Shown piece by piece: positions 38,325-63,609 of a DNA stretch of 64,000 bases. Source of the DNA: an uncultured Faecalibacterium sp. (GTDB taxonomy: Bacteria > Bacillota > Clostridia > Oscillospirales > Ruminococcaceae). The stretch is taken from contig CAKSYT010000005.1 in NCBI GenBank assembly GCA_934524985.1, forward strand, positions 62,001 to 126,000. The letters run 5' to 3'. The notes beneath the pieces were generated by a model. That model did not search any database and was not told the DNA's origin. It saw only the letters and a program-made list of their open reading frames with translations. Within the stretch, counting starts at the first letter, position 1. Every line of letters starts with the position of its first letter. The position numbers were made by a program, and so were the translations under genes.

Positions 38325-38413
38325 ATGGCCTCCGCTATGCTCTGGCCATGTTTAGCGGAAGAATTATTTATAATTTTGGGATAGCGGAGCGCCCGCAGGC
38401 GCTCCGCTATCCC
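38325..38413 (-). repeat. Two-hairpin intergenic repeat, copy C
   Basis: Minus-strand copy. Long hairpin with 16-bp arms GGGATAGCGGAGCGCC / GGCGCTCCGCTATCCC (38378-38413), an AT-rich link, then stem ATGGCC / GGCCAT (38325-38349) around the loop AGAGCATAGCGGA. Compare copies A (50899-50985) and B (63521-63609). Confidence 0.75.
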
Positions 38414-38440
38414 ATTTTCACGGGGAACTTCCCCACACGC

Positions 38441-38478
38441 AAAGCAGCCGCTGCACAGTAAGATGCAGCGGCTGCTTT
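38441..38478. terminator. Bidirectional terminator between mod and glp genes
   Basis: AAAGCAGCCGCTGCA / TGCAGCGGCTGCTTT, 15-bp perfect arms, between converging transcripts. Confidence 0.85.
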
Positions 38479-38504
38479 GCTTATTTGTGTAAAAAGGGGA
38501 GTGC

Positions 38505-38852
38505 TTATGCCATATCGCGGCAGGTCACGATGTCAGCCCCGGTGCCGCAGACGTTGGTCAGCACCACATCACCCACATGGATGGGCGCATGCAGTACCAC
38601 GCTGTCCAGCGCGGCGACCACCTCAGCCATCTGTCCCTTGGGCACGGGCTTGGAGGTCTTGACCGGGCAGCGGGAGTGCAGGCAGCCCTCGGCGCGCACG
38701 GTGCTGGTAATGATGCGGGTGGGGTGGGTCAGCTCTTCCTTGCCGTAGGCGATGCCGTTGGGGCAGCCGTTGCCGGTCACCTTGTAGTCGTTGGCCTCAT
38801 CCACCTGCAGATGGCAGCCCTGAGGGCAGCAGGTGCAAATTACTTCTTTCAT
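38505..38852 (-). CDS. DUF1667 protein, glycerol-3-phosphate dehydrogenase-associated
   Basis: 115 residues. The start at 38852 has GGAGG 10 bp upstream; the in-frame ATG at 38861 overlaps the previous stop and is only 1 bp from that site. CTCCPQGCHL and GNGCPNG supply an N-terminal cysteine set, with further Cys in CLHSRCPVKTSKPVPKG. DUF1667 proteins are found third after GlpA-like and FAD/NAD oxidoreductase genes; the cysteines suggest a metal or Fe-S role. Product of the glp-like operon. Confidence 0.85.
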   Translation of the reverse strand: MKEVICTCCPQGCHLQVDEANDYKVTGNGCPNGIAYGKEELTHPTRIITSTVRAEGCLHSRCPVKTSKPVPKGQMAEVVAALDSVVLHAPIHVGDVVLTNVCGTGADIVTCRDMA

Positions 38853-38857
38853 ATCGC

Positions 38858-40111
38858 TCATGCCTCCTCGATCTCAATGGTCACTTCATCCACGGGGGCT
38901 CTGTCCAGCAGCACTCTGGGCAGGGCAATGTGCTCCATCTCGCCGGGGGCAAGGCGGTCGCGCTTGAAGCGTGCGATCACCGTGTCACCGCTCTTGACAA
39001 GGATGGTGCTCTTGCCGCAGATGCGGCGGACGCGGAAGGACACGTTGGTGCTCTTTTCCACGCCTTCCAGACGGATGCGCTGCGGCAGGGTGTAGCCAAG
39101 GTCTGCGCCGGGCTTCACGGTCAGCACACGCCCCTCGGCCACGGGGCCATTTTGGATATAGTTGGCAGCCGCTGCACCGGCCAGCTCGCTCTCGCCGGAA
39201 ACAAAGTCCACCAGATCGTGCACCTGCACCACGTTGCCGCAGGCAAACACGCCGGGAATGCTGGTCTCCATGTTCTCGTACACGATAGCACCCTTGGTGC
39301 GGGGGTCCATCTCGATACCGGCCTGCTTGGTCAGCTCGTTTTCGGGGATCAGGCCCACGCTCAGCAGAATGGTGTCTACGTCAAACTCCATCTCGGTGCC
39401 GGGGATGGGCTTGCGGTCGGGGCCGATCTCGGCCACGATGGCCTTTTCTACGCGGTCCTTGCCCTGAATATCCACGATGGTGTGGGAGAGGTACAGGGGA
39501 ATATCAAAGTCGTTCAGGCACTGCACGATGTTGCGGGTCAGGCCGCCGGAGTAGGGCATCACCTCTACGCAGGCCAGCACCTTTGCGCCCTCAAGGGTCA
39601 TGCGGCGCGCCATGATCAGGCCGATATCGCCGCTGCCGAGGATCAGCACCCGCTTGCCCACCAGATAGCCTTCCATGTTCACATAGCGCTGTGCTGCACC
39701 GGCGGTGTACACACCGGCAGGGCGGGTGCCCGGGGTACCAATGGCACCGCGGGTGCGCTCGCGGCAGCCCATGCCCAGCACGATGCTCTTGGCTTCGATG
39801 ATCTGGTAGCCGTACTCTTTGGAGACGCAGTGCACCTTTTTGTCCGGGGTCACTTCCAGCACCATGGTGTCCAGCTGCACCTTTACGCCGGTGTCCTTGA
39901 GCATCTCAATAAAGCGTCCGGCGTACTCCGGGCCGGTGAGCTGCTCGCCAAAGCGGTGCAGACCAAAGCCGTTGTGGATGCACTGGTTCAGAATGCCGCC
40001 CAGCTCCTTGTCACGCTCCAGAATGAGGATGTCGCGCAGACCGCTTTCCCATGCCTTGCAGGCAGCAGCAAGGCCCGCAGGGCCGCCGCCGATAATGACC
40101 AGATCAACCAT
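38858..40111 (-). CDS. NAD(P)/FAD-dependent oxidoreductase, second glp-like subunit
   Basis: 417 residues. FAD-binding GGGPAGLAAA lies at 8-17 and a second dinucleotide site (LILGSGDIGLIMARR) near 157-171, the pyridine-nucleotide-disulfide oxidoreductase layout. FACGNVVQVHDLVD near 300 closes the FAD site. With the GlpA-like gene upstream and DUF1667 downstream it forms the three-gene set proposed to replace GlpABC in Firmicutes. Start at 40111 has AGGAGG upstream and overlaps the previous gene by 8 bp. Confidence 0.87.
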   Translation of the reverse strand: MVDLVIIGGGPAGLAAACKAWESGLRDILILERDKELGGILNQCIHNGFGLHRFGEQLTGPEYAGRFIEMLKDTGVKVQLDTMVLEVTPDKKVHCVSKEYGYQIIEAKSIVLGMGCRERTRGAIGTPGTRPAGVYTAGAAQRYVNMEGYLVGKRVLILGSGDIGLIMARRMTLEGAKVLACVEVMPYSGGLTRNIVQCLNDFDIPLYLSHTIVDIQGKDRVEKAIVAEIGPDRKPIPGTEMEFDVDTILLSVGLIPENELTKQAGIEMDPRTKGAIVYENMETSIPGVFACGNVVQVHDLVDFVSGESELAGAAAANYIQNGPVAEGRVLTVKPGADLGYTLPQRIRLEGVEKSTNVSFRVRRICGKSTILVKSGDTVIARFKRDRLAPGEMEHIALPRVLLDRAPVDEVTIEIEEA

Positions 40112-41549
40112 TGCTCTTTCCTCCTACCTTCGTTTCGCTGACCAGAACGTTCGAGCCGTTCTTGTCCTGCAGAATGTCCAGGGGGCTCATGCCCAGCTCA
40201 CGGCTGATAAGCTCCAGCACGCGGGGGCCGCAGAAGCCGCCCTGACAGCGGCCCATGCCTGCACCGGCGCGGCGCTTGACGCCGTCGATGGTGTTGGCGG
40301 GCACCTCGCTGTGGAGGGCTGCTAAGATCTCGCCCTCGGTGATGGTCTCGCAGCGGCAGATGACCCGGCCGTAGGCGGGCTGCTCCTTGACCAGCGCTGC
40401 CTTTTCCTCTGCGGAAAGCTCCTTGAAGCGGATGTGGCGGCGGCCGTCCTTGTAGTCGGCCTTTTCCGCGCCCAGAACGCCGCGCTGCTGCAGGATGGCA
40501 ACGGCCTCCTCAGCAACGGCCGGGGCAGCGGACAGGCCGGGGCTCTTCATACCGGCCAAGTCGATCCAGCCGGGAGCTTCCGGCTCTTCGCCAATGATAA
40601 AGTCGTCCACGTCCAGATTGGCGCGCACGCCCGCAAAGCTGCGGATAGACTCGCCAAAGTTGATGCTGGGCACGCTGCGCTGGGCAGTGGTCTTGACAAA
40701 TTCCAGACCGCTGCTGGTGCAGGAGGTGTCGTTGCCCTCCACCGGCTCCGCGTTGGGGCCGACGATCAGGTTGCCGTGCACGGTGGGGGCTACCAGCACG
40801 CCCTTGCCCAGCTCGTTGGGGCACTGGAAGATGACGTGGCTCACGCGGGTGCCCTCGCTCTTGTCCAGCAGATAGTACTCGCCCCGAGTGGGGATGATGC
40901 GGAAGTTGGCGGGCTCCACCATGGAGTGCACCTTGTCCGCCCAGATACCGGCGGCGTTGATGACGCAGCGGGTCTCTACCGTGCCGCCGGGCACGGTCAG
41001 GCGGTAGCCGCCCTCGATGAATTCGGCATCGGTCACCTTGCAGCTGCGGCGCAGCTCTACGCCGTTGCGCACCGCCACCTCGGTCATGGCCAGTGCGTAC
41101 TCCCACGGGTTCACGATGGCGGCGCTGGGTGCCCACAGTGCGCCGCAGACCTTCTCAGAAAGGTTCGGCTCCATGGCAAGGGTCTCTTCCCGGGAAAGGA
41201 TCTTCATATCGGGCACGCCGTTGGCGGTGCCGTTCTCAAACAGATGCTGCAGGTGGGGCAGCTCCTTTTCGTCCAGTGCCAGCACCAGAGAACCGCACTG
41301 CTTGTAGGAGACATCCAGCTTTGCGCAGATCTCTTTAGCCAGCGCCACGCCGCGCACATTCAGCCGTGCCATGCGGGTGCCGGGGGCGGGGTCGTAGCCT
41401 GCGTGGAGAATGGCGCTGTTGGCTTTGGTGGTGCAGTCTGCCACATCGTTCTCGGCCTCAAGGATGACCACCTTGTTGTCGTAGCGCGACAGTGCGTAGG
41501 CGGCAGCGGCACCGATGACACCACAGCCGATGATTGCTACATCATACAT
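40104..41549 (-). CDS. GlpA-like FAD-dependent dehydrogenase with BFD-type [2Fe-2S] domain
   Basis: 481 residues, start at 41549 behind AGGAGG. N-terminal FAD site IIGCGVIGAAAAYALSRYD; DAO-type oxidoreductase body to about 375; then a BFD-like domain with CRCETITEGEI and GRCQGGFCGPRV, four cysteines for a [2Fe-2S] cluster. This is the GlpA architecture (glycerol-3-phosphate to dihydroxyacetone phosphate). The leader at 41550-41690 carries a terminator suited to GlpP antitermination, which supports the glycerol-phosphate role. Other DAO substrates are possible. Confidence 0.87.
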   Translation of the reverse strand: MYDVAIIGCGVIGAAAAYALSRYDNKVVILEAENDVADCTTKANSAILHAGYDPAPGTRMARLNVRGVALAKEICAKLDVSYKQCGSLVLALDEKELPHLQHLFENGTANGVPDMKILSREETLAMEPNLSEKVCGALWAPSAAIVNPWEYALAMTEVAVRNGVELRRSCKVTDAEFIEGGYRLTVPGGTVETRCVINAAGIWADKVHSMVEPANFRIIPTRGEYYLLDKSEGTRVSHVIFQCPNELGKGVLVAPTVHGNLIVGPNAEPVEGNDTSCTSSGLEFVKTTAQRSVPSINFGESIRSFAGVRANLDVDDFIIGEEPEAPGWIDLAGMKSPGLSAAPAVAEEAVAILQQRGVLGAEKADYKDGRRHIRFKELSAEEKAALVKEQPAYGRVICRCETITEGEILAALHSEVPANTIDGVKRRAGAGMGRCQGGFCGPRVLELISRELGMSPLDILQDKNGSNVLVSETKVGGKSNG

Positions 41550-41610
41550 TGTTCTTTTCCTCCTGTCCGTTCTGCCTTGGCCCGTCGGGAGCCGGGCAGC
41601 TGTTGATGGT

Positions 41611-41660
41611 ACAAAAAAGAGCGAAACAAACAAAGGCAATTGCCCTTGTCCGTTTCGCTC
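41611..41660 (-). terminator. Leader terminator of the glp-like operon (GlpP target)
   Basis: On the minus strand GAGCGAAAC...AAGGGCAATTGCCTTT...GTTTCGCTC followed by TTTTTTG. It lies between the promoter (41723-41695) and the first gene (41549), as expected for an antitermination site. Confidence 0.78.
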
Positions 41661-41694
41661 ATATCTCTTGAAACAAACAGCACTTGTTAAGCTT

Positions 41695-41723
41695 ATGATA
41701 CCCTCTCTCTGCACAAAAAGCAA
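41695..41723 (-). promoter_or_regulatory. Promoter of the glp-like operon
   Basis: Minus strand TTGCTT (41723-41718), 17-bp spacer, TATCAT (41700-41695). Confidence 0.65.
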
Positions 41724-41787
41724 GATGTTTTGCACTTTTTGTGAAACACTTACAAAAAACACCTACTGCTTTTGCGCAGAATGCGGG

Positions 41788-50465: not shown

Positions 50466-50789
50466 CCCTCTCAGGCTCACTGCGTTCGCCTGCTCCCCCG
50501 AAAGGGGGAGCTTTTTGCACGCCCGCAAGCTTTGCGCGAAAGCCGGAAGGTTTGCGGTTGTGCCGGAAGCGGGCTCGCCCTCTCCGTCATCGCTGCGCGA
50601 TGCCACCTCTCCCAAAGGGAGAGCCAAGCCGTAAAGCTCGTTGCTAAAGTATTAGGTGCAATGAGGAAGCTTCCGGCAGTGCTCTTGGCTCTCCCTTTGA
50701 GGAAAGACTTCCCCCGCTCCGGGGGAAGATGTCGCGCAGCGACAAAAGGGGGAATCTGTCAAGCCCGACAGGGCTTGACTGAGAGGGCG
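50466..50789. repeat. MITE-like repeat, composite long copy
   Basis: Begins CCCTCTCAG and ends GACTGAGAGGG, with GCTCCCCC-GAAA-GGGGGAGC near the left and CTTCCCCC/GGGGGAAG towards the right. The 50619-50684 core (GAGCCAAGCCGTAAAGCTCG onward) matches 11583-11648. Several inner hairpins suggest nested insertion of related units. Confidence 0.75.
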
Positions 50790-50850
50790 CACGCCGTTGC
50801 CATCGGTACTAAAGTGACAAGAGCAATGAGAAGCCTTCCGACAGCACCCC
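50787..50850. repeat. Third, diverged core unit of the MITE-like repeat
   Basis: GCCGTTGCCATCGGTACTAAAG...GAGCAATGAGAAGCCTTCCGACAG follows the pattern of the cores at 11583 and 50619 with several changes. Confidence 0.6.
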
Positions 50851-50898
50851 TTAGATACTGCAAATGCAGTTTCCGGCTACGACCCATCCGTGAAAAAA

Positions 50899-50985
50899 GC
50901 GTCTGTCGCACTCCGCAGAGTGCGACAGACGCGAAATTATAAATATTCTTTCCGCTGATGATGCGCAGAGCAACGCGGAGCGCAT
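50899..50985 (+). repeat. Two-hairpin intergenic repeat, copy A
   Basis: 15-bp arms GCGTCTGTCGCACTC / GAGTGCGACAGACGC with loop CGCA (50899-50932); AT-rich link GAAATTATAAATATTCTTTC; stem ATGCGC / GCGCAT (50961-50985) around AGAGCAACGCGGA; then TCAAAATCGT. Confidence 0.78.
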
Positions 50986-51021
50986 TCAAAATCGTGCCGT
51001 GCCCGGCAGGGGAGAGGACAC

Positions 51022-51098: not shown

Positions 51099-51965
51099 TC
51101 AGTTTTCCTTTTTGCCCTGACGGTTCAGCACCCAGCCGATGGCAAACAGCAGCACACCGCTACAAGCCAGCACCGGCACGGGCCAGTTCAGCTGACCGGT
51201 CTGGGGCAGAACGGGCTTATCGGGGTTGGAAGGGGAGACCGGGTTGTCCGGGTTGCCGGGGCTCACGGGGTTATCCGGGGTACCGGGACTTACCGGGCTA
51301 TCAGGGCTGTCTGGGCTTACCGGGGTATCCGGGGTGTCGGGGTTTACCGGGGTATCCGGGTTGTCAGGGACGTCCGGCTCATCGGGAGTGTCGGGTGGTA
51401 CGTCCGGGGTGTCGGGGGTGTCCGGCGTTTCCGGAATGGTGGCACCTACCTTGGGGGTGGCGTCCACATCGTAGATCCAGTTATCGCCGTCGGGCAGCGG
51501 AATGGACACAAGGAAGGGTTTGATGGCCTCGTAGCCGTGGGAGGCCTCAGTCTGCACCACCAGATACAGCCCCTGCGGGAGCTTGGTGATGTCGGCATAG
51601 CCCTCCTCGTTCACGTCCTGCTGGGCGGCAATGGCGGGCACAGCGGGCAGATACTTTACCAGCTGGTCTGCCAGCGTGCTGTCGGAAAGATCGCCCAGCA
51701 CGACACTGCAGCCTGCAAAATCGCCGGTATAGTCAAAATACAGGTTGCCGTTGGTGCGCTTGACGGAAGCCACCTGATACAGGGTAAGCTCGCCGCCGCG
51801 CAGGGGCACATCGTTGTGGGTGTCGTACAGGCGGACGTGGAGCGAGCCCTGACGCCCCAGCACAATGTTGGCACTGGTGGCAAAGGCCGGCAGGGCACAG
51901 CATACCACAAGACACATAGCCAGCAGCACAGCCGCCAGACGATGACGCAGATCAATGCTTTTCAT
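51099..51965 (-). CDS. Small pilin / LPXTG-anchored pilus subunit
   Basis: 288 residues; ATG 51965 has AGAGG 8 bp upstream and overlaps the sortase stop, which is preferred to GTG 51974. A signal peptide ends near AFA (29). One pilin-type domain (about 35-170, LYQVASVKR, GLYLVVQT) is followed by a Pro/Asp/Ser-rich stalk (179-251), then LPQTG at 253-257, a membrane helix and a basic tail. The stalk suggests a wall-spanning basal or minor pilin fixed by sortase. Last gene of the operon. Confidence 0.83.
   Translation of the reverse strand: MKSIDLRHRLAAVLLAMCLVVCCALPAFATSANIVLGRQGSLHVRLYDTHNDVPLRGGELTLYQVASVKRTNGNLYFDYTGDFAGCSVVLGDLSDSTLADQLVKYLPAVPAIAAQQDVNEEGYADITKLPQGLYLVVQTEASHGYEAIKPFLVSIPLPDGDNWIYDVDATPKVGATIPETPDTPDTPDVPPDTPDEPDVPDNPDTPVNPDTPDTPVSPDSPDSPVSPGTPDNPVSPGNPDNPVSPSNPDKPVLPQTGQLNWPVPVLACSGVLLFAIGWVLNRQGKKEN
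51213..51431 (-). repeat. Pro/Asp/Ser coding repeat in the small pilin
   Basis: Imperfect units such as PDTPD, PDNPVSPG and PDSPVSPG in tandem over about 73 codons. Length variation by slippage is plausible. Confidence 0.75.
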
Positions 51966-52797
51966 GTTCTTCACCTCTCGTTTTCTTGGGTTTGCGTGTG
52001 GAAAGCAGCATACCGATCAGCAAGATCAGCAGCATGGGCAGCGCCATAATGGGCGCAACAATGATGGGTTCAATTTTAAGCGCTTCGGCGGTAACGCGGA
52101 GGTGCTTGTACTGATCCGGGGTCTCTACGCGGCGGCCGCGCACCAGCAGGCGGTGGGTGTTGATGCCGTAGGGGGTGCAGGTCATCAGGGTGACGTAGTC
52201 CTTGCCTTCGGCGATCTTCAGCTCGTCGGTCTCGGTGGGCAGCACGATGGAAATTTTGTCCACCTCGTAGGTGAGCACCCGGTCCAGCACGGTGATGGTA
52301 AAGGTATCGCCCACTTCCAGCTGGTCGAGGTTGGTAAACAGCTTTGCGCTGGGCAGGCCGCGGTGCGCCGAGATGACCGCGTGGGTGGACGCGCCGCCCA
52401 CCGGCAGGCTGGTGCCCTCTAAGTGGCCTGCGGCGATCTGCAACACGCTGTCGCCGGTGCCGTGGTAGATGGGCAGCTCCACGCCGATTTTGGAGATGGT
52501 GATGTAACCCATAATGCCGGTGCCGGTAATATCCAGCGTGTCGTTGTAGCCGGAAAGCTGATCCGGGCGGTAGAGGGCGTTTTCGTTGGCGGCCACCTGT
52601 GCGTTAAAGGCATCGGCGGCGTCAAAGTAGGCGCTGTAATCCGCATCGGTCATGTTGTCCACGTCCTGTGCGTAGCTTGCCACCGCGCGGGACTGGTTGC
52701 GCTGGTTGACGTAATCGCTGATGGTGGGGTATAACATCACGGATAGACCCACGAAAAAGACGAGGATCAGTATAATGGTGCTTTTGTTCTTTTTCAT
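51952..52797 (-). CDS. Class C (pilus-polymerising) sortase
   Basis: 281 residues. N-terminal membrane helix (8-24), sortase barrel with His145 (ISAHRGL), Cys207 (LMTCTPYGINTH) and Arg216, then a C-terminal membrane helix and basic tail, the class C layout. TLxTCTPYGxNxHRLLVRG is the class C signature. It links pilin monomers through LPXTG and a pilin lysine. It sits between the major pilin and the small pilin genes. Confidence 0.92.
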   Translation of the reverse strand: MKKNKSTIILILVFFVGLSVMLYPTISDYVNQRNQSRAVASYAQDVDNMTDADYSAYFDAADAFNAQVAANENALYRPDQLSGYNDTLDITGTGIMGYITISKIGVELPIYHGTGDSVLQIAAGHLEGTSLPVGGASTHAVISAHRGLPSAKLFTNLDQLEVGDTFTITVLDRVLTYEVDKISIVLPTETDELKIAEGKDYVTLMTCTPYGINTHRLLVRGRRVETPDQYKHLRVTAEALKIEPIIVAPIMALPMLLILLIGMLLSTRKPKKTRGEEHEKH

Positions 52798-54509: not shown

Positions 54510-57500
54510 TTAATCATCTGCCCTCCCTTCGCGTCTGCGCTTGCGGTGGATAAAACTATATGCCAGCGCAGACAGCATCATTGTGCCGCCCACGGCTGTA
54601 AACGGGAGTGTACCGGCCCCGCCGGTAGAGGGGAGTTCGTAGCCGGTGTTGTCTTTTTCCTTGTTGGTCAGCGTAAGCAGACCGCCGTTTTCAACACCGG
54701 TTGTGTTGCTGTCGCTGTAAATTACATCATACTTGTTACCGGTAGAAGCTTCCTCAATGTAGTAGAGGTAGCCATCTTCCAAGTTGTTGTAGGTAAATGT
54801 CCAACTGTTGGTATTGTCCAAGATGATATTTTGTACAAATATGCCGTTTGTGCGCGTACCGCTTGTGCCGTCCTTTGCATACTTGTACAGCTTGACAGTA
54901 ACAGAAGTTTCTTCAGTCGGGTTCATACTTTGGCCGTTTTTATTGACCCAGAATTTCTGAATAGTCAACTGGCTACGGTCATTCTTGATATACAGGTCAT
55001 GAGCGGTACCGTATTGGTAAACAATGACATTCTCAAATTGCGGTACGTCCTCACCGGGCTGAATATTCTTACCAACGACCTTATTATAAAGTTCCTGATC
55101 GGTACCAGTCCAAGCATTTGGTGCCCAGACGAAGTAATAGGCAACGTCACTCTCGCGGTAGCCAGCAGGCGGGTCGGTTTCCGTCAGGCGGTACAACGTG
55201 GTAGCGTTCATGGTTACACTAGTAGAAGAGCCAACATAAATTGCAACCTTGCCGTTGGAATCTGTGCGCATGGTCTGGTTCTTATCGGTTTCCCACTTGC
55301 CGGTTTCAGGGTTGAAGCGGCTCAGAGTAAATTCGGCATCTTCCAAGCCTACCTTCTGGTTCAGGCTATCCACTTTGTGGATCGTCAGCAGACCTTGTTC
55401 AACCTTAGCCCAGCCGTTTACTTCATCAAGCTTTTTGGACGTCTCAGACGCCCATTTGCCTTCCAGATTAGCGGTGTTTTTCAGCTCGACATTTTGGTTT
55501 TTGGCATCCGTGTCATAACTGTACTTTAACACAAAGGCACGCTCGTCGGGAATGGTGAGTACCATGGTATACACGTTTTCACCGGCTTCATTGACGGAGG
55601 TGGAATAAGAGAAGGTGTAGGAGTTATCCGACAACGGATTGTCCAGATCATTGGCATCATACAACTTGACGGATTCCAGATCCAGCGTTGCAGCAAAGCC
55701 TTTTTGTACGGTCAACGTATCGGTCAGGGTGAGGTAATTTTTACCCGGAACCAGATTTTTACCGGTAGGATTGATCTTGATCGTATAGTCTGCACCATTG
55801 GTTTTGGCGCCAGAAGTATTTTCAGACTGCTGGCCGCTCTTTTCCAGAACATTTACCACACGGTTGACGGTTGCGGTTGCATCGTCCGAATGACCGTTCC
55901 AGCTGACCGTATTGATGTAGTCATGGGTCGTTGTTTCCGGGTCACGCCAGACGGAATCTTCCGAAGTGGTATCCAGCTCTACGGTGTAGCGGATCAGGAA
56001 ACCCTTTATCTTCAGAGAACCGGCATCACCTGTTTCTAGTTTTTGAAGGTGTTTAAAATTAAAATCAAGTGTCTGACCGCTGGAAGCATTACCGGTGGTT
56101 TGTGCATCAAAGAACGTAGCATCCCTCAGGTCATGCGCCTGAGGAAGTTTAGGAGTTTTATTGCCATTAACGTAATCATATTGGTTATATAGAATGTTCC
56201 AGAAATCACCATTTTTATACCAGAAGGTGGCTTCAGCGGAACCGTCTACATAGGTTACGCCCTCCGGCAGCTTATCAGTAACAGTGATGGTATCATCCAT
56301 AAAGGTGTCATCACTATTTTTTCGTTCCGACACATCCACAAGAACCTGATAGTACAGATACGTCTTGCCGTCATTATTGTAGCTGACGGTTGCGGTCTTT
56401 CCGTACTGATTGTTACCAGAACCAGTGCTGATATTATTCTGTTTTATGCCGCTTACACCCTTTTTGATCTCAGAAGGTGTGTCAGGGGTCTTTTTCTCGT
56501 ACGAATAATAAGCAGAAGTACCGGCCTTATTTTCGTACTGGACCTTTTTATCGTTCGGAACACCGGTCACATCCACATAGGTATAGTAATCGTTGATTAT
56601 CAATTCCTTAATGTGTTTGTCGCCTTTATAGTTGTTGGTAAGCTCGATTTTGAACGCTTGAACCTTTTTCGTCCTATCATTCGCTGGGATCTCAAGGTCA
56701 GAAGTCATATATTGATCGTGATTATCACTATAATATGTGATCTTGATACCAATACCAGCAGCAACAGCTTCCTGATAACTCAGAGAAGTACCGTCCGTGC
56801 AGTTAAAGTACAGATGACTCTTGAGCCTAGTATCCAACTCAGCGGCGATCCCGTAGTGAGCACCTTCATCAGGCTTGTTAGGCGTATAAATATAGTCCGT
56901 GATCGTTTTCTTATCCCAGTTGTTCGGGACAGCCGTTGTGATCTTCCAATAGGCTTTATAGATATTTGCCTTATCGGTTTCCTCCAAGGTACTCTTGGTA
57001 GCTGCTTTATTCAGGTTCCAGCCACGGTCTTTTACCTCTGCTTCGCTATAAGTAGAACCACCCGGAACAGAGGCTTCGTTTCTGACTTTTTGGCCTACGG
57101 TGGCAGGCGCGGTGGTCGTGTAAGTGAACTTATACTCCTCACCGGTAGCAGCTCTGGGGAACATATATTCAAAACTGCTTTGTCCACTCACACCAGTGAT
57201 CGTATCAAAGAGCGTTTCATCACCATAGTAGCGATGCAGCTTTTCGGTAACCTTGATATCGCCAACAATGGTCTGACCAGCTGTTTTAATAACGTCGTTC
57301 AGGGTGTAGCCTTTGGGAATGGTGCCGCCGTTGTAGTTAGTCACGGTGACTACCCATGTGATCAGGTTGGTATCCGGGTCGTAGGTACCACTCTTGAAAA
57401 GAAGAGCATTGTGCTGGATCCACGGTGTAACAGGCTTTTCATCATTCGTCCGTGCACTATTATTGTTGATGACGTAACTGCCATCCGCAGCGGGATTTGT

Positions 57501-59825
57501 TTTGTTGACTTCAACATCATAGGTCAAAATATACTGTTCGCCTTTTGACATTGCAGGCAGACCAGTAATCTCGAAGCCATTGTTATCAGGATTCTTGGTT
57601 AAAGTGTATTTGCTCGCATCAATAGGGTTGCCATTTTTATCTTTTAGCGTGAAAGAATCCCACTTGTAAGAAGTAGAGGTAGAGGTAGTATTATTCAGCT
57701 TATCCTTAATATATACTTCACCATTCCAGCCATTATCCGAGGTAACGGTAACAGTATAATGGATAATCGTTTTTCCGCTTATGGATTCATCAATGGAACC
57801 GGTCTTGTTGATCCTGATATCCTTCGGGTCGGTTACCTTGATGGTGACACTGCTGCCGGGGAAGCTGATGCTGCCGCCATCGCCAAGTTTTTCGGTCGTA
57901 ACTTTTGCTTCCAAGCCAAAGGAACCTTTAAAAGGCTGGTGGGCGTCAAAATCATCGTTGAGATGCAGGGTGACAAGGCCGGTCTTGGAAACATCCATTT
58001 TACCAATAACCTTACCGCTCTGGGTGATATCCTGCCCCTGAATGGCAGTGCTCAGATAGATACCGGTAGGCAGCTGATAAGTCAGACTGCGGTTTGTATC
58101 TGTCTCATTAAAGGTATTAGCAGGAATAGAAAAATTGTAATCCAGAACGACCTTGTCGCCAGTCTTCAGGTCGATCGAGCTGCCGGTCTGCACCACATTA
58201 TTGATCGTGATCGTAGTGCCAGTGATCCAGCTTTCCTGCAACGTGGTCGCGGTGCTTACGGTCGTGGGTTCACCCGCCAGCAAAAGCATATCGGATGCTT
58301 GCAGTGCGCCGTCAACGGCAGAGGAGAGCATCTCGTCTGCATACTGGGCATAGGCAACATCCACCACGCCCAGAACCTCGGCGTTGGAAAGGGTGACCTC
58401 AGCCACCTTGCCGTCCACGTCGCCGGAGATAACGGTCAGCGTGTTCTCGTCTGCTTCGCTCACGATGCCCACGGTCTCCACGGGCTGAGCATCGGTCACG
58501 GTGGTGGTCTGTGGCTCGGCAGCAGGGGAGACTACGCTGGGCGCAGCGGTGTCGGTGGTATCGGGAGTGGTCACACTGTCGGTGGTGGTATCCAGCGCAG
58601 CCGTGCCGGAACCTTCAAGCTCTGCGCCGTTTTCGCCATCGGCGTCCATGCTGAACAGGTCGTCCAGACCGTCCGCTGCACCATCGGCGCTGCTGTCCAC
58701 AGCCACGGTGCGGGTGACGTACTTATTATAAATAACGATGTCGCCCACATCGGCGGAACTGCCGTCCTCGCCGTCCAGCAGCCATTCCATGTCGCTCATG
58801 GAGCTGCGCAGGGCAAGCACGCTGGCCTCCTGCGGGATGGCGCTCTGGGGGATACCGGCGTACTTCAGGCAGTAAGAGAGGAACATCACGTCCCACTCGC
58901 CGTAGGGGTTGCCGTAGGACTGACCGTAGCGGGAGTAGTAGCGCAGGGTCACGCCGTCCGCGGGGTCAATCTCAAAGTTTTTCTCGCTCTGCTCGTAGCC
59001 CAGCTGGGTTTTTGCCACGCTGACCAGATCCTCGGCCCAGTTGCCGGAGATCACGGCCTCGGCGTTGGCGGCCTGCCACTCCTCGGGGGTCTCAAGGTCG
59101 GCGGAAGTGTCGCTCAGGCAGGCTACGGTGTGCTGATGCTCCGGCAGGGGGCAGGTGAGCACTTCCTCGTAGCAGGCATCGGTGTGGTGGTGGTAGATGG
59201 GCTCCACGGTGTCCACCATCGGTGCCAGCGCCACGGGCTCGGCCACAGCCATAGCAGCCAATGCGGCGCTCTGGGTGGGCTCCACCACCTGCTCCACAAG
59301 CTCGCCTTCCTGCAGGCCGCAGGTCAACTCGTACTCGGTGGTATAGCAGCTTTCGTCGTGGGTATGCTCAAATTTTTCGCAGATCAGGCTGCCGTCCTCG
59401 GGGTCGAAGCAGTCGTCACCGTGGACGTGCTCTTCCTCCATGCAGGTCAGGGTCTGCACCTCAGTGTAGCAGTCGTCGGTGTGCTCGTGGGGCACAAACT
59501 CGATCTGCGGCTCCAGCGACAGCGGCATGATATCTTCCTCGGCGCTGGGCTGGTCGGCCTCGGCGGCGGCCACTTCGGCTGCATTTTCAAGCTCGCCTTC
59601 CTCGTAACCGCAGGTCAGCACCTTGGTGTAGCAATCAGCCGTGTGGGTGTGCTCCTCCTCGCCGCACTGGTACTGCGCGGTCATAGAAATGCCCACGCCG
59701 TGCAGCTGCCAGTTGACGAACAGGGTGGTGATCATGGCAAGCGCCAGCACGAATGCGGTATAGCGCCGCAGGGTGTGCCGGTTCTCGCGGAACCGCTCCA
59801 TGTACGTTTTAAGGATGTCGTTCAT
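54510..59825 (-). CDS. Large LPXTG surface adhesin, probable pilus tip
   Basis: 1771 residues; AGGAGGT precedes the ATG at 59825. A membrane/signal helix (22-42) leads into six HxHxxxC units (59-236), a CHAP/NlpC-like domain (about 261-370) in which the catalytic Cys position is Asp312 (EWDVMFLSYC), an acidic Thr-rich linker, then repeated isopeptide/Cna-type stalk domains (about 540-1560) and CnaB domains (1570-1720). LPSTG lies at 1731-1735, followed by a membrane helix and a basic tail. First structural gene of the pilus operon. The stalk part is visibly richer in AT than the N-terminal part. Confidence 0.87.
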   Translation of the reverse strand: MNDILKTYMERFRENRHTLRRYTAFVLALAMITTLFVNWQLHGVGISMTAQYQCGEEEHTHTADCYTKVLTCGYEEGELENAAEVAAAEADQPSAEEDIMPLSLEPQIEFVPHEHTDDCYTEVQTLTCMEEEHVHGDDCFDPEDGSLICEKFEHTHDESCYTTEYELTCGLQEGELVEQVVEPTQSAALAAMAVAEPVALAPMVDTVEPIYHHHTDACYEEVLTCPLPEHQHTVACLSDTSADLETPEEWQAANAEAVISGNWAEDLVSVAKTQLGYEQSEKNFEIDPADGVTLRYYSRYGQSYGNPYGEWDVMFLSYCLKYAGIPQSAIPQEASVLALRSSMSDMEWLLDGEDGSSADVGDIVIYNKYVTRTVAVDSSADGAADGLDDLFSMDADGENGAELEGSGTAALDTTTDSVTTPDTTDTAAPSVVSPAAEPQTTTVTDAQPVETVGIVSEADENTLTVISGDVDGKVAEVTLSNAEVLGVVDVAYAQYADEMLSSAVDGALQASDMLLLAGEPTTVSTATTLQESWITGTTITINNVVQTGSSIDLKTGDKVVLDYNFSIPANTFNETDTNRSLTYQLPTGIYLSTAIQGQDITQSGKVIGKMDVSKTGLVTLHLNDDFDAHQPFKGSFGLEAKVTTEKLGDGGSISFPGSSVTIKVTDPKDIRINKTGSIDESISGKTIIHYTVTVTSDNGWNGEVYIKDKLNNTTSTSTSYKWDSFTLKDKNGNPIDASKYTLTKNPDNNGFEITGLPAMSKGEQYILTYDVEVNKTNPAADGSYVINNNSARTNDEKPVTPWIQHNALLFKSGTYDPDTNLITWVVTVTNYNGGTIPKGYTLNDVIKTAGQTIVGDIKVTEKLHRYYGDETLFDTITGVSGQSSFEYMFPRAATGEEYKFTYTTTAPATVGQKVRNEASVPGGSTYSEAEVKDRGWNLNKAATKSTLEETDKANIYKAYWKITTAVPNNWDKKTITDYIYTPNKPDEGAHYGIAAELDTRLKSHLYFNCTDGTSLSYQEAVAAGIGIKITYYSDNHDQYMTSDLEIPANDRTKKVQAFKIELTNNYKGDKHIKELIINDYYTYVDVTGVPNDKKVQYENKAGTSAYYSYEKKTPDTPSEIKKGVSGIKQNNISTGSGNNQYGKTATVSYNNDGKTYLYYQVLVDVSERKNSDDTFMDDTITVTDKLPEGVTYVDGSAEATFWYKNGDFWNILYNQYDYVNGNKTPKLPQAHDLRDATFFDAQTTGNASSGQTLDFNFKHLQKLETGDAGSLKIKGFLIRYTVELDTTSEDSVWRDPETTTHDYINTVSWNGHSDDATATVNRVVNVLEKSGQQSENTSGAKTNGADYTIKINPTGKNLVPGKNYLTLTDTLTVQKGFAATLDLESVKLYDANDLDNPLSDNSYTFSYSTSVNEAGENVYTMVLTIPDERAFVLKYSYDTDAKNQNVELKNTANLEGKWASETSKKLDEVNGWAKVEQGLLTIHKVDSLNQKVGLEDAEFTLSRFNPETGKWETDKNQTMRTDSNGKVAIYVGSSTSVTMNATTLYRLTETDPPAGYRESDVAYYFVWAPNAWTGTDQELYNKVVGKNIQPGEDVPQFENVIVYQYGTAHDLYIKNDRSQLTIQKFWVNKNGQSMNPTEETSVTVKLYKYAKDGTSGTRTNGIFVQNIILDNTNSWTFTYNNLEDGYLYYIEEASTGNKYDVIYSDSNTTGVENGGLLTLTNKEKDNTGYELPSTGGAGTLPFTAVGGTMMLSALAYSFIHRKRRREGRADD

Positions 59826-59847: not shown

Positions 59848-60438
59848 TCAGTGGATCAACGAGAAGCTGGACAGGGGCCATACCCTCAAGAAAACCCTGC
59901 CCACGATCTGGCTTTTTTCAACGCAGCCTATCACGCTGCTGCGGCTGTCGATGGAAGTGGCGCGGTGGTCGCCCAGCACGAAGTAGCGGTTTTCCGGCAC
60001 CTGATAGGGGAACCGGATGTCGCATTCGCCCACGGTCAGCGCGTCCACATAGGGTTCGTCCAGCGCCACGCCGTTTACCGAGACCACGCCGTTCACGTCC
60101 ATATCGATCACATCACCGGGCTGCCCGATGATGCGCTTGAGCAGCAGCTTGTTCTGCCAGTAAAACCCGCACAGCTCGCCGTTTTCAATGTGGTTGGATT
60201 TTACCAGCAGGATAATGTCCTTATCATTCAACGTAGGGTACATGCTGTCGCCGGAGACCTGAAGCACCGGCAGAAACAGCGTAGCCAGCAGCACGGCTGC
60301 TGCGGCCACCACCACCAGAATATAGATCGTACTGCGCAGCACCCGCTGGTAGCGGTTCTGGTACGCAAGACGCTCACGTTCTGCGGCCACTTCCTCGGTG
60401 GAAGGGATGGAAGCGAACCGGATATCGCGTTTTTTCAT
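59848..60438 (-). CDS. lepB: Signal peptidase I
   Basis: 196 residues. One N-terminal membrane helix (about 37-58), catalytic Ser65 in SGDSMYPTL and Lys101 in LLLKRIIGQPGD, then GDHRATSIDSR near 155. It cuts signal peptides outside the membrane. Its place in a pilus operon, coupled to the upstream gene by ATGA, suggests it is dedicated to the pilins, as in other pilus loci with their own peptidase. Confidence 0.9.
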   Translation of the reverse strand: MKKRDIRFASIPSTEEVAAERERLAYQNRYQRVLRSTIYILVVVAAAAVLLATLFLPVLQVSGDSMYPTLNDKDIILLVKSNHIENGELCGFYWQNKLLLKRIIGQPGDVIDMDVNGVVSVNGVALDEPYVDALTVGECDIRFPYQVPENRYFVLGDHRATSIDSRSSVIGCVEKSQIVGRVFLRVWPLSSFSLIH

Positions 60439-60974
60439 GTTTCCTCCGAAGGCAGGCCGTCAGTGCTGCGGTACTGATCCAGCAGCTCGTTGGCCTTGCG
60501 GTCAAATGCCTGCCAGCGCTGCTGCACCTCCTGCTCGGCGCGCTCTACCATGGCCTTGCAGTCGGCCTCGGTCTGGGTGCGCTTTTGCGCGGCGGCGGCG
60601 GTCATGGCATCGCATTCCTGCTGCGCCTGCGCCTTCAGGCTGTCGGCGTCTGCCTGTGCCTGTTCCAGAATGCGTTTGGCCTCGCTGCGCGCCTGCGAAA
60701 GGGTGTTGGCGGCGGTGGCGTTGGTGTCCGCAAGGCTGGCCTGCACCGAGTGCAGATAGTCATCGGCGGCGGCCTGCGCGGCGGCGAACACGTTGTTCAG
60801 CTCCAGCGCGGCCTGCGCGATGGAACCGGCGCTTTCCAGCCGGAGCTGCCGGTCCTGCAGCTGCGCGGTGAGCGCGGCGTTCTGCGCCTTGAGCTGGTCC
60901 TCGCTCTGTTTCAGCGCGTAGATGATCTCTATCAATTCAGCGCGGTGCATTCGCCGCAGTTCACGATCTGCCAT
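60435..60974 (-). CDS. Coiled-coil protein of unknown function, first gene of the pilus operon
   Basis: 179 residues, almost entirely helical and charged. Two segments suggest coiled coils: about 8-45 (ELIEIIYALKQSEDQLKAQN) and about 75-165, rich in Ala, Gln, Glu. No signal peptide or membrane segment, so it is cytoplasmic. DivIVA-like polar-scaffold proteins look similar, but no firm family can be named. It overlaps lepB by 4 bp, so it is made together with the pilus export machinery. Confidence 0.72.
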   Translation of the reverse strand: MADRELRRMHRAELIEIIYALKQSEDQLKAQNAALTAQLQDRQLRLESAGSIAQAALELNNVFAAAQAAADDYLHSVQASLADTNATAANTLSQARSEAKRILEQAQADADSLKAQAQQECDAMTAAAAQKRTQTEADCKAMVERAEQEVQQRWQAFDRKANELLDQYRSTDGLPSEET

Positions 60975-61009
60975 TTGCGTACAAACTCCCGAATGTAAGA
61001 TGACGAAAT

Positions 61010-61032
61010 TTCTTTCGGAAATTCCGAAAGAA
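61010..61032. promoter_or_regulatory. 23-bp palindrome upstream of the pilus operon
   Basis: TTCTTTCGGAA-A-TTCCGAAAGAA, perfect 11-bp arms around one base, between a possible minus-strand -10 (ATTGTA at 61109-61114, TACAAT on minus) and the first gene. An operator is likelier than a terminator, as no T-run follows. Confidence 0.6.
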
Positions 61033-61312
61033 CTTAAAGAAATTGCCTGAAAAATCGCTTGCCGTCACGCTATTTGCGCGGCCGGAGAGATCTTTTATAA
61101 GCTATCTTATTGTAACACATCTCCCGTAACAACAATATAACAAATCGGACACAAAATCAAGAGATAAAGCCGAAAAAATATCGCAAAATTTTTTGTTTTA
61201 TGTGTAAAACACCTAAAAAGAAGGCAATAAACCGCAAAGTTGTTAAAATTTTCCTTCATAATTCTGGCTTGTGAAGTTCTGCACAGTAGTGTACTGAACT
61301 GCTGCGTCTACG
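61033..61312. other. AT-rich intergenic region upstream of the pilus operon
   Basis: No gene seen. It is clearly more AT-rich than the genes and probably holds the pilus promoter near 61100-61140. Confidence 0.5.
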
Positions 61313-61355
61313 AAAAACGGGAGCCGCACTTTTTCGGAAAAAGCGCGGCTCCCGT
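61313..61355 (-). terminator. Terminator of the double-glycine peptide operon
   Basis: ACGGGAGCCGC / GCGGCTCCCGT with a T-run on the minus strand (AAAAA at 61313-61317 on plus). Confidence 0.85.
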
Positions 61356-61378
61356 ATCCAAACTTTGGGGTGATCCTT

Positions 61379-61612
61379 TTACTTGCCAAAGCTGCCCAGC
61401 AGGCTGTTCAGCGATACAAAGGACTGGTAGATGACGTTGACGTTGTTGATGATGGAGCTTGCACCGGAGAAGATGCGGGCGATGTAGTTGAACACCTTGC
61501 CGATGTCCAGGAAGGACTGGTAAGCGTTGCTGGCACCGCCGTCCAGATAGGTCATCTCCTCGGCTTCGATGGCGGAATAGCTGGCGGGCATTTTCATGGT
61601 AGAAGTAGTCAT
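61379..61612 (-). CDS. Double-glycine leader peptide (bacteriocin- or pheromone-like)
   Basis: 77 residues; ATG 61612 with AGAAAGGGA upstream. The leader ends EAEEMTYLDGG at residue 26, the class II bacteriocin-type double-glycine site with the hydrophobic residues before GG that C39 ABC transporters recognise. The mature part is 51 residues, without cysteine, with two YQSF segments (AYQSFLDIG and IYQSFVSLN) and a hydrophobic-amphipathic middle. No C39 transporter or immunity gene is adjacent. Paired with the InlB-repeat gene upstream. Confidence 0.75.
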   Translation of the reverse strand: MTTSTMKMPASYSAIEAEEMTYLDGGASNAYQSFLDIGKVFNYIARIFSGASSIINNVNVIYQSFVSLNSLLGSFGK

Positions 61613-61658
61613 GGTAAGATCCCTTTCTTCAATGGTATCATTGCGTTTACAGCAGTGT

Positions 61659-62117
61659 TCAGAACATGGTGGCGACCAGCAGGGTGGTAAGCAGGGCACC
61701 GGCCACAAGTGCGGGCCCTACATACTTTTGCCACTGGACGGCGGCGGGCTGGGTGGTGGGCTGCGGCACGGTAGTGGTACCGGCCTTGGCAGTCCAGTGG
61801 GCGTAGATGGTGGCGTCGGAGGTGAACACGGTGGAGGTGGTCACCTTGCTGCCGCCCACCGGCTCGGTGTACCAGCCGTCAAAGGTGTAGCCCGTCATGG
61901 TAGGCTGCTCGGGCGTGCTCTCCAGCTTGCCGGACAGGTTCGTGTAGGTGACCACAGTAGAGCAGATGCCGCCTTGGGCATCCATACCAATGGCGTACAC
62001 GTTCTCTTCCTTTTTGCTCCCTGAAGTTTTGTCGGCAGCAAATGCAGCCGGCAGTGCGCAGCACAGCAGCGTGAACAGGCAAAGCCCGACCACCAGCGTT
62101 TTCAGGAATTTTTTCAT
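61659..62117 (-). CDS. Small membrane-anchored protein with one InlB B-repeat
   Basis: 152 residues. Signal peptide to about AFA (27). A single InlB/Flg_new-type repeat (about 42-110) with GYTFDGWYTEPVGGSKV and TIYAHWT, a Thr/Pro linker, then a C-terminal membrane helix (about 134-152) with no LPXTG. Such repeats mediate surface interactions. It lies 46 bp upstream of the double-glycine peptide gene in the same direction, so the two are probably one transcript. Confidence 0.78.
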   Translation of the reverse strand: MKKFLKTLVVGLCLFTLLCCALPAAFAADKTSGSKKEENVYAIGMDAQGGICSTVVTYTNLSGKLESTPEQPTMTGYTFDGWYTEPVGGSKVTTSTVFTSDATIYAHWTAKAGTTTVPQPTTQPAAVQWQKYVGPALVAGALLTTLLVATMF

Positions 62118-62487
62118 GAGATCCCTCGCTTTCCTTCACAAAGATGGAGACACTGCCCCGCCCGAGCGCAGCCCGGACGCAGGAGAAGTTTCTTCAACTT
62201 ATTTTTATCACATCCAGTGTACCAGAAGCGCAACAAAAAATACAGTCTTTTGAGAAAATAATAAGAAAAATCAAGAAAAAAATAAATTTCACCTTTGCAA
62301 GATGAATCTTATGCCCCTACGGACTGTGTTTTTTGAAAAACGCATCCCGCAAAACTTACCTTTCGTAAAAACATGGCAGGATATGGAAAACGCAAAACCC
62401 CTGCCGCAAAGCCCCAAAAACGACCTAAACTGCCGCAAATGCAGCGGGCGGCGCGCAGAAAAAAGCTGCAAAAACACGGCGCACCTC
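62118..62487. other. AT-rich intergenic region
   Basis: No gene that I can support. Two long runs of A/T at 62200-62300 look like the promoter region of the minus-strand InlB-repeat gene (TACACT on minus at 62221-62216). Short frames here overlap the tRNA promoter and are not credible. Confidence 0.45.
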
Positions 62488-62516
62488 TTGTGGAACGGCG
62501 GAAAATATGGTATACT
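62488..62516 (+). promoter_or_regulatory. Promoter of the tRNA-Gln gene
   Basis: TTGTGG (62488-62493), 17-bp spacer, TATACT (62511-62516). Confidence 0.75.
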
Positions 62517-62527
62517 ATTTTGCATGA

Positions 62528-62601
62528 TGCGCCATCGCCAAGCGGTAAGGCAGGGGACTTTGACTCCCCCATCGTAGGTTCGACTCCTGCTGGCGCAACC
62601 A
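62528..62601 (+). tRNA. tRNA-Gln (anticodon UUG)
   Basis: Acceptor TGCGCCA / TGGCGCA, anticodon stem GGGGA / TCCCC with loop CTTTGAC giving anticodon TTG, T-arm GTAGG-TTCGACT-CCTGC, encoded CCA. Own promoter and terminator. Confidence 0.95.
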
Positions 62602-62603
62602 GA

Positions 62604-62641
62604 AAAAGGCCGTTGTACAGGAGACTGTGCAGCGGCCTTTT
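62604..62641 (+). terminator. Terminator of tRNA-Gln
   Basis: AAAAGGCCGTTGTACA / TGTGCAGCGGCCTTTT. Confidence 0.83.
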
Positions 62642-62693
62642 CTGCATTCTGCTGCAAAAACAGGCTTTGCACAAAGATTTTACCCGGATTTGA

Positions 62694-62722
62694 TTGCATC
62701 TGCGGGGCGCGGCTACTACAAT
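62694..62722 (+). promoter_or_regulatory. Promoter of the HD-domain gene
   Basis: TTGCAT (62694-62699), 17-bp spacer, TACAAT (62717-62722). Confidence 0.65.
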
Positions 62723-62766
62723 AATAAGTGTTTTCTCCAACTGAAACAATAAAGGATGCAACGAAC

Positions 62767-63423
62767 ATGACATATAAAGAAATCAAAAACAATGAAGAGG
62801 TCAACGAGCTGCTGAAGAAGGGCGACCGGAACCTTGGACTGCTTGGCTATACCGACCACTCCAAGGCGCACTGCGTCCGGGTGGCGGAGACTGCCGCGCA
62901 TATCCTGAAAAAGTTCGGCTACTCGGAGCACGAGATCGAGCTTGCCCGCATTGCAGGCTATATGCACGATATCGGCAATGCTATCAACCGCAGCCGCCAC
63001 GCAGAATACGGTGGGTTGCTGGCGAATGAGATTTTAAAGCAATACGACCTGAGCGTTGCGGACCGCATCACCATTGTATCAGCCATCTCCAACCACGATG
63101 AATCCACTGGCGGCGCGGTGGACGCGGTGTCGGCGGCGCTCATTATCGGCGACAAGACCGATGTGCGCCGCAGCCGTGTGCGCGAAAAGCCCAAGGCGAC
63201 CTTTGATATCCACGACCGGGTGAACTACGCGGTCACGGATCAGACCCTGAAGATCGATCTGGACAAAAAGGTCATCTCGCTGAATTTGCAGATCGACACG
63301 GATATTTGCAGCATGTACGAGTACTTCGAGATCTTTTTGCAGCGGATGCTGATGTGCCGCGGCGCAGCGGATATGCTGGGCGCGACCTTCAAACTGACCG
63401 CAAACGGCGCAAAGGTGCTGTAA
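62767..63423 (+). CDS. HD-domain phosphohydrolase
   Basis: 218 residues, ATG 62767. Metal-ligand pattern of an HD domain: His35 (HSKAHCVRVAE), His67-Asp68 (GYMHDIGNA), His110-Asp111 (ISNHDES) and an Asp near 129. Members hydrolyse nucleotides or cyclic nucleotides; the substrate is unknown. The C-terminal part (about 145-218) is an unrecognised helical domain that could sense or dimerise. Own promoter. Confidence 0.83.
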   Translation: MTYKEIKNNEEVNELLKKGDRNLGLLGYTDHSKAHCVRVAETAAHILKKFGYSEHEIELARIAGYMHDIGNAINRSRHAEYGGLLANEILKQYDLSVADRITIVSAISNHDESTGGAVDAVSAALIIGDKTDVRRSRVREKPKATFDIHDRVNYAVTDQTLKIDLDKKVISLNLQIDTDICSMYEYFEIFLQRMLMCRGAADMLGATFKLTANGAKVL

Positions 63424-63520
63424 AGCGTAAGCATAATAAGGCCGGCTACAAGTCTGTTTCGAAAATAGCTGCTTTTTAGCGGCAGCTGCCGTTTTCCGCA
63501 GCGACCCCTCTCGTGAAAAA

Positions 63521-63609
63521 GTGGTTCAGAAACGCCCGCAGGCGTTTCTGAACCACAAATTTTAAAATAGTATTCCTTTAAACATGCCCAGAGCGCAAGC
63601 GGAGGGCAT
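63521..63609 (+). repeat. Two-hairpin intergenic repeat, copy B
   Basis: 16-bp arms GTGGTTCAGAAACGCC / GGCGTTTCTGAACCAC with loop CGCA (63521-63556); AT-rich link; stem ATGCCC / GGGCAT (63584-63609) around AGAGCGCAAGCGGA; then TAAAATCGT. Confidence 0.78.

Follow-up and report, generated by a model that had tools for sequence, protein, structure and literature searches.

A dispersed two-hairpin repeat family of Faecalibacterium with a terminator-like hairpin that varies between copies

The 64,000-nucleotide stretch of contig CAKSYT010000005.1 examined here (positions 62,001 to 126,000; uncultured Faecalibacterium sp., assembly GCA_934524985.1; hereafter the window) contains several copies of an intergenic element with two stem-loops. 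The genus carrying this repeat is Faecalibacterium. The repeat forms a family of its own within an established kind and clearly documents the exchange of hairpins; it is probably a family of small non-autonomous mobile repeats which carry their own intrinsic terminator, of the SPRITE/EFAR kind. A first-pass annotation, made from the letters of the window alone, had described four copies (A to D) of a dispersed element lying between genes and sharing one plan with preserved pairing. That description was borne out by the sequences, and whole-genome scans gave many more copies. A covariance model and a search of related genomes, the check proposed in that annotation, revealed covariation and numerous matches in genomes of the same genus.

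In the nearest genome compared (G001), which shares 24% of the sampled 31-letter words of the window, all 150 scored candidates passed E ≤ 1e-3 with the covariance model R1. Since 1,333 candidates existed and 150 of them were scored, this genome has at least 150 matches. Four single-contig genomes of the same genus, with 150 candidates scored in each, contained at least 146 (G023), 77 (G010), 129 (G030), and 93 (G031) matches. Under stricter filters, a survey of 61 genomes revealed matches in 13 of 31 same-genus genomes and in none of the 30 genomes from other genera. Eight of the 13 positive genomes had at least 61 matches each, and five had one to three. The remaining 18 same-genus genomes were without a match, yet one of these, G006, shows an apparent remnant at the site of copy D. 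A pattern scan of named genomes gave four stretches, all from Faecalibacterium prausnitzii. The 8-kb stretch of APC923/51-1 showed 92–95% identity to the G001 and G023 stretches, and no strong match to the stretches compared was obtained with the remaining three. No match for copy B was found in plasmids. Eight of 50,697 phage records matched the element, all of them unannotated 'Bacteriophage sp.' contigs of 4.5–7.1 kb from human faeces (including MT839100.1), as did the IMG/VR contigs L303–L305, which are labelled viral; such contigs may be host DNA. Literature searches, whose coverage excluded subscription papers and which thereby do not prove novelty, found no description of this repeat in Faecalibacterium.

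The unit is asymmetric and comprises about 105–115 bp. Its consensus reads CCCCTCCC-GTGAAAA, hairpin 1, AAATT(A)TAAAATA.., TTCCGCTGAA, ATGGCC-AGAGC..GCGGA-GGCCAT (stem 2 with its loop), and TTCAAAATCGT. Hairpins and gene context were counted in the 39 top-scoring of 65 matches from a G001 stretch and 39 of 74 from a G023 stretch (lowest scores retained, 70.9 and 77.1 bits, respectively; many sites are orthologous between both), and the hairpin counts additionally take in window copies A, B, and C. Hairpin 1 was present in 78 of these 81 copies. Its stem was 15–17 bp long in 75 and perfect in 66 of the 78, with at least 14 mismatches in 1,235 pairs, a lower bound because stems were ended where pairing fails. 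When loops of 3–5 bases were tried, all 78 hairpins had a loop of 4 bases, which took the form C(CGCA)G in 70. The 78 hairpins possess 64 different 5' arms, and an identical 5' arm recurs at several loci. Many copies carry a GNRA-like tip, GCAA. In some units, additional sequence containing a separate GC-rich hairpin extends the 5' side, and in three G001 loci (L016, L024, and L028) a second element, 88 bp long in L016, is inserted within the loop of hairpin 1. Two other candidate features were discarded. The use of G/T versus A/C mismatches as a strand indicator was uninformative (5 versus 3 in the 1,235 pairs), and a TCCGCT/AGCGGA pseudoknot suggested by copies C and A is not defining, since several copies including B have TCCTT yet retain AGCGGA.

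The repeat also occurs in a paired form. Among the 150 matches in G001, 22 of 23 close pairs (<450 bp) were arranged minus-plus, with starts 107–292 bp apart. The ATCGT ends in this arrangement thus face outward, and each T-run lies on the strand of transcripts entering from its own side. The paired form has the inverted ends ACGATTTGAAT ... ATTCAAATCGT, while single units have ACGA/TCGT at most.

An alignment of 29 copies, namely the three window copies and 26 of the first 30 G001 loci (L007 was left out as rearranged, and L016, L024, and L028 for their loop insert), folds into stems of 15 and 6 bp with a tip of 2 bp. Changes on both sides were seen in 17 of 23 pairs, and 95.8% of cells were paired, as compared to 70.1% in shuffles and 34–40% with partners slid. 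The level of covariation was reached by none of 500 shuffles. The corresponding values for 65 copies from 0.8 Mb of G001 were 98.1% of cells paired and 23 of 23 pairs changed on both sides; this alignment was fitted to the model and is hence biased towards it.

The covariation, which the first-pass annotation took for direct evidence of selection on structure, is indeed strong, but orthologous copies often differ by whole blocks. Eleven G001/G023 pairs, in which both genomes have a listed match at the same place, were compared (343041 was dropped from an initial 12, its match being a tandem neighbour rather than an ortholog). The flanks on the ATCGT side were 92–96% identical in 10 of these pairs, although one comparison spanned no more than 264 bases; in the eleventh pair, DNA with an IS200-type gene interrupts the G023 sequence. 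Over the inner 13 bases, the numbers of differences in the 5' and 3' arms were 0/0, 10/10, 7/7, 0/0, 8/8, 0/0, 1/1, 0/0, 2/2, 10/11, and 5/5; that is, both arms of the hairpin change in step. Hairpin 1 was block-different (at least 5 of 13 inner positions) at five loci, and stem 2 was of another type at three (485051, 496790, and 478358), one locus being shared by both sets. At 485051 stem 2 is switched and the hairpin is identical; at 496790 stem 2 is switched and the hairpin differs by one compensated pair. Altogether, 7 of 11 orthologous loci show a block difference in hairpin 1 or stem 2. The covariation is, therefore, not simply point-by-point compensation, and the covariation among paralogs overstates the number of independent compensatory events. 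Small compensatory changes are present too, as at site 496790/489510 and at site A between G004 and G001.

Two sites illustrate how hairpins may be replaced. At site A, the genomes G001, G023, G027, and G004 share stem 2 with the window but carry another hairpin. There are two tandem units at this site in G001, and the window has a single one, which combines a hairpin of the upstream type with the downstream stem 2. At 275767, G001 carries the hairpin stem of G023 and, directly downstream of it, a second hairpin. Such swaps could easily come about through nested insertion or tandem recombination.

Hairpin 1, read on the strand opposite to that considered in the first-pass annotation, looks like an intrinsic terminator. 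A T-run of at least four within 10 bases of the hairpin was present on the reverse strand in 72 of 78 copies and on the forward strand in three. The reverse-strand loop is C(UGCG)G, a tetraloop of the UNCG type, and 4–6 U follow in most copies; thus, a stable hairpin and a U-tract occur in this order on the same strand. UNCG-type tetraloops are stable. A terminator scan called copies A and B on the minus strand. The same stretches contain 147 ordinary terminator-like hairpins behind other genes, of which 100 have a stem of 12–18 bp. CUGCGG was their commonest tetraloop (17 of 55), although some of these hairpins could be weak, unmasked copies of the element. The mean folding energy was −27.6 kcal/mol for hairpin 1 and −24.8 kcal/mol for the ordinary hairpins. 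A transcript entering at the ATCGT end would run through stem 2 before it reaches hairpin 1, which in this direction reads stem, C(UGCG)G, stem, and U4–6; there the polymerase would stop. Two units back to back with the ATCGT ends outward would form a bidirectional terminator. That the repeat actually terminates transcription is inferred from these sequence features. The 'structured RNA' proposed in the first-pass annotation is the best supported of its three options in this form, as an intrinsic terminator on the other strand.

A structured RNA acting in trans, or a riboswitch-like element, on the strand originally considered is very unlikely: strong covariation in two stems and the GNRA-like tip would suit it, but there is no Rfam match, the T-run lies on the opposite strand, the ATCGT end mostly faces the 3' ends of genes, and copy-rich genomes have from about 80 to more than 150 matches each.

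The gaps holding the 78 copies were convergent in 26, co-directional in 49, and divergent in three cases, as compared to 106, 291, and 136, respectively, for 533 background gaps of at least 120 bp. Gene context was derived from a crude model of open reading frames (ORFs), in which 4 of the 78 copies overlap a called gene by more than 30 bp. The gene at the ATCGT end points towards the element in 53 of 78 copies, at a median distance of 34 bp. Solitary copies follow the replichore in G001 (76 of 106, P about 1e-5, assuming that the record starts at the origin and dividing it at 1.6 Mb). The same sense was seen in 82 of 122 solitary copies of four other genomes, as counted among the listed rows and with genome lengths rounded for three of the four; G010 alone was unbiased (7 of 13). 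Convergent gaps are balanced with respect to gene direction, and 17 of the 20 copies in them share one orientation (P 0.003), a ratio that overstates independence, since the sets from G001 and G023 share orthologs. The orientation bias can mean fork-directed insertion or selection against head-on transcription. It is conceivable, though unlikely, that the repeat both spreads and is renewed via single-stranded DNA at the replication fork. It would then insert in fixed orientation relative to the fork and displace resident terminators, its arms would be rewritten together by fold-back copying, and terminators across the whole genome would be exchanged with pairing almost never lost.

The mobility of the family is suggested by its high copy number together with sites that are occupied in one relative and unoccupied in another, as is characteristic of miniature inverted-repeat transposable elements; such differences may be gains or losses. 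At site D, the locus was obtained from 28 genomes, 27 of them readable. The unit with hairpin 1 is present in G023 and G004, which agrees with the earlier recognition of D as a decayed copy; the hairpin is partly lost in the window and wholly lost in G027. G001 displays a clean empty site (TATG-AAAGGAG). G010 and G031 carry a unit in the same gap at a different exact place and with another hairpin, G006 has the remnant, and the remaining genomes show short gaps or other sequence. In G030, G021, G005, G017, and G013, which belong to other species, the gap holds other repeat-like sequence. At site C, a decayed stem 2 without hairpin is retained in G001 and G027. The G023 ortholog of this site (L229, around 2.446–2.4475 Mb) contains a phosphotransferase system (PTS)-like gene flanked by pieces of element ends. 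Nine polymorphic G001/G023 loci were displayed, and at four of these (398314, 602112, 365033, and 297921) another hairpin or terminator was recognized by eye opposite the element. The element does not appear to have captured a local terminator at 398314, 602112, and 297921, where its hairpin differs, by eye, from that of the other genome. Two outward-facing pairs with a gene between them were read; judged by eye, one of these genes was transporter-like and the other PTS-like, and neither was a transposase. In G023, a Y1 (IS200-type) transposase gene (C1:2540218-2540574) is separated by a few hundred bases from a copy of the element, at a site where G001 lacks the extra DNA.

If the repeat is a mobile terminator of the kind proposed, the unit would move via an enzyme acting in trans, with stem 2 and the ATCGT end as the putative recognition site, and hairpins would be exchanged through nested insertion and deletion or through conversion between copies. 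Several observations weigh against this interpretation. Site D showed no target-site duplication, and a partner transposase was not found, the systematic search for mobilizing enzymes being confined to PF01797; mobility is, for these reasons, only inferred. Remnants lie opposite a full unit at 602112 (stem 2) and 487127 (GTGAAAA), which indicates loss rather than gain at these loci, and the empty D site of G001 could also be a deletion. With regard to termination, the loop of copy C is reversed and is followed by four T only, and the terminator scan missed this copy. The gene on the GTGAAAA side also points towards the element in 48 of 78 copies, so that the context signal partly reflects a mere scarcity of copies in promoter regions. 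The orientation of solitary copies in co-directional gaps is only slightly skewed (19 in, 14 away). Finally, D and the separate unit of G010 and G031 occupy a gap between co-directional genes, to which their terminator is antisense.

A REP/REPIN-like origin would make stem 2 a REP-type palindrome to which a Y1 (HUH) transposase binds in single-stranded form, the inverted pairs REPINs, and the terminator a passenger. The fixed polarity of 22 of 23 inverted pairs speaks for this, as does the replichore orientation (76/106, 82/122, and 17 to 3), which is as expected of single-strand insertion; the last ratio, however, is inflated by shared orthologs, and G010 is unbiased. Y1_Tnp (PF01797) was detected in 11 of the 31 same-genus genomes, including G012, which has no element match, but not in the copy-rich genomes G001 (at least 150 matches) and G031 (at least 93). 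Inspection of the aligned copies by eye revealed no GTAG tag adjoining hairpin 1 or stem 2, and CGT lies away from the stem. We hold this origin to be improbable, and the REP-type transposase substrate suggested in the first-pass annotation is not supported. The remaining option of that annotation, a protein-binding role, may still apply to stem 2.

Alternatively, the copies could represent an ordinary family of host terminators with conserved flanks, which is spread by homologous recombination between genomes and is not mobile. Hairpin 1 resembles the terminators of the host, the same 5' arm occurs at several loci, and some absences resemble losses. Of the CUGCGG hairpins, 15 of 51 in the G001 stretch and 16 of 49 in the G023 stretch lay outside the listed copies, although TTTTCAC is still visible in several of these, which may be copies in decay. 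Termination, however, requires neither the conserved link nor stem 2 nor ATCGT, and site D shows presence versus clean absence among 27 readable genomes, with a different place and hairpin in G010 and G031. This makes such a host family quite improbable.

The nearest known kinds of repeats, judged by their descriptions, are SPRITE and EFAR/Efa-1. According to the portion of the source available, SPRITE is a short, AT-rich dispersed repeat with a terminator-like hairpin, which is enriched between convergent genes and near gene 3' ends. Its stem and T-tract are longer than those of normal terminators of its host, 63.3% of copies are on the leading strand, and the repeat does not significantly resemble the ends of pneumococcal insertion sequences. 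As far as these descriptions go, the Faecalibacterium repeat shares the dispersed terminator-like hairpin, the convergent gaps, the proximity to gene 3' ends, and a strand bias, but differs in its copy-specific hairpin sequence, second stem, ATCGT end, and paired form. EFAR elements are modular and replace stem-loops at their targets, a behaviour that would fit the differences observed in the Faecalibacterium repeat. Efa-1 of Enterococcus faecalis is described, in the excerpt available, as a small intergenic family with two adjacent stem-loops and is tabulated with the values 163 and 65 (PMC2267715); EFAR is named in PMC3733652. By description, our repeat is likewise a small intergenic family with two adjacent stem-loops, but it belongs to another genus and has another unit size.

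The available text of PMC3733652 characterizes GTAG and CGTC REPs and the RAYT-driven REPINs as palindromic, intergenic, located downstream of genes, and forming head-to-head dimers, all of which applies to the Faecalibacterium repeat. The CGTC REPs are reported there to be without a dedicated transposase, and CGTC adjoins a stem of 8–9 bp; in most aligned copies of our repeat, CGT is positioned 6–7 bases beyond a 6-bp stem. The repeat thus differs from REPs in having the tag away from the stem, a 6-bp stem 2 with an internal loop, and no consistent Y1 transposase. The phyla named for GTAG and CGTC REPs in that text exclude the phylum of Faecalibacterium. The uptake-sequence terminators of Neisseria and Pasteurellaceae, as presented in the part of PMC1852404 at hand, also form a dispersed family which doubles as terminator hairpins; their stem holds a highly conserved uptake sequence, whereas the stem is the most variable part of the Faecalibacterium repeat.

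The covariance model gave seven matches at E < 1 in the window: copies A to D, a hairpin-only relative absent from the first-pass annotation, and two weak matches that merely represent hairpins C and B read on the other strand. Scores of 105–116 bits were obtained for copies A, B, and C, which are themselves 3 of the 29 training rows of the model. Copy A (50890..50995, plus strand) extends from GTGAAAA to ATCGT and scores 105.9 bits at 50886-50997. Its hairpin 1 (50899..50932), called by the terminator scan on the minus strand, has a 15-bp stem, a UGCG loop, and the terminator-like tail TTTTTTCACG; stem 2 (50961..50985, plus) is ATGCGC ... GCGCAT with the loop AGAGCAACGCGGA. Copy B (63513..63618, plus) has the same boundaries and scores 116.3 bits at 63509-63620. 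Its hairpin 1 (63521..63556, minus, terminator scan) has a 16-bp stem, a UGCG loop, and the terminator-like tail TTTTTCACGA, and its stem 2 (63584..63609, plus) is ATGCCC ... GGGCAT with the loop AGAGCGCAAGCGGA. Copy C (38321..38421, minus) extends from GTGAAAA to TCGT and scores 105.4 bits at 38319-38425. Hairpin 1 of this copy (38377..38414, plus) has a 17-bp stem and a reversed loop, TGCG in place of CGCA, followed by TTTTCAC on the plus strand; stem 2 (38325..38349, minus) is ATGGCC ... GGCCAT with the loop AGAGCATAGCGGA. The decayed copy D (5256..5335, plus; 38.2 bits, E 1.3e-6) has partly lost hairpin 1 and retains stem 2 as ATGGC/GCCAT together with ATCGT. Hairpin 1 is perfect in A, B, and C, as first described, but the length given then, 15–16 bp, fits only A and B. 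The ATCGT end, likewise, is exact in A, B, and D, and in C only TCGT follows immediately after the stem. The hairpin-only relative (24111..24186, minus; 41.1 bits, E 2.5e-7) has hairpin 1 with a CCGCAG loop and a degenerate end; stem 2 was not seen in it.

The pattern GTGAAAA-N14-19-CYGCRG, derived from the window copies themselves, occurs three times in the window versus 0.04 expected. With 2 mismatches allowed, a relaxed 16-base pattern covering just the loop of stem 2 was found 12 times, at the chance level of 11.1 in shuffles. The window by itself, therefore, could not decide the matter, while the whole-genome scans do. At its gathering thresholds, Rfam contained no family for the repeat and identified in the window only a tRNA and a Moco riboswitch, both elsewhere. 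The outer end of copy C is 5 bp behind an ATP-binding cassette (ABC)-transporter gene ending at 38316. Copy B is 49 bp behind a minus-strand frame which has its end at 63667 and continues beyond the edge of the window, and copy A is about 100 bp behind a minus-strand ORF ending at 51099, with a plain terminator hairpin in between. Copy D lies in the operon-like gap between the genes for a Cys/Met pyridoxal phosphate-dependent (PLP) enzyme (3976-5250) and homoserine O-succinyltransferase (5356-6294).

Other features of the window include the match to the Moco (molybdenum/tungsten cofactor) riboswitch at 29968-30113 (plus strand; 36.4 bits versus a gathering score of 36). The minus-strand ORF 51099-51974 contains a 27-base tandem repeat array (51238-51434) and has a weak SpaA match under the curated cut-off. 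The minus-strand ORF at 54510-59825 encodes 1,771 amino acids; a scan of the C-terminal 1,496 residues gave an LPXTG cell-wall anchor match at the end. Other dispersed repeats are located next to copy A at about 50560-50800 and occur also in G012, which has no element match, and in G016, which has one. Between a tRNA gene (62528-62598) and copy B, the stretch 62728-63512 includes an HD-domain ORF (62728-63423). This stretch is absent from the orthologous site in G001, G023, and G027, and its DNA has matches at other places in G006, G027, and G023.

If the proposed interpretation is correct, many gene ends in several Faecalibacterium genomes would be supplied by a mobile repeat, whose hairpins turn over faster than the flanking genes. 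The family would then represent a natural experiment on terminator evolution and a source of ready terminator parts for the genus. It would also call for caution against taking covariation among paralogous repeats as point-by-point compensation.

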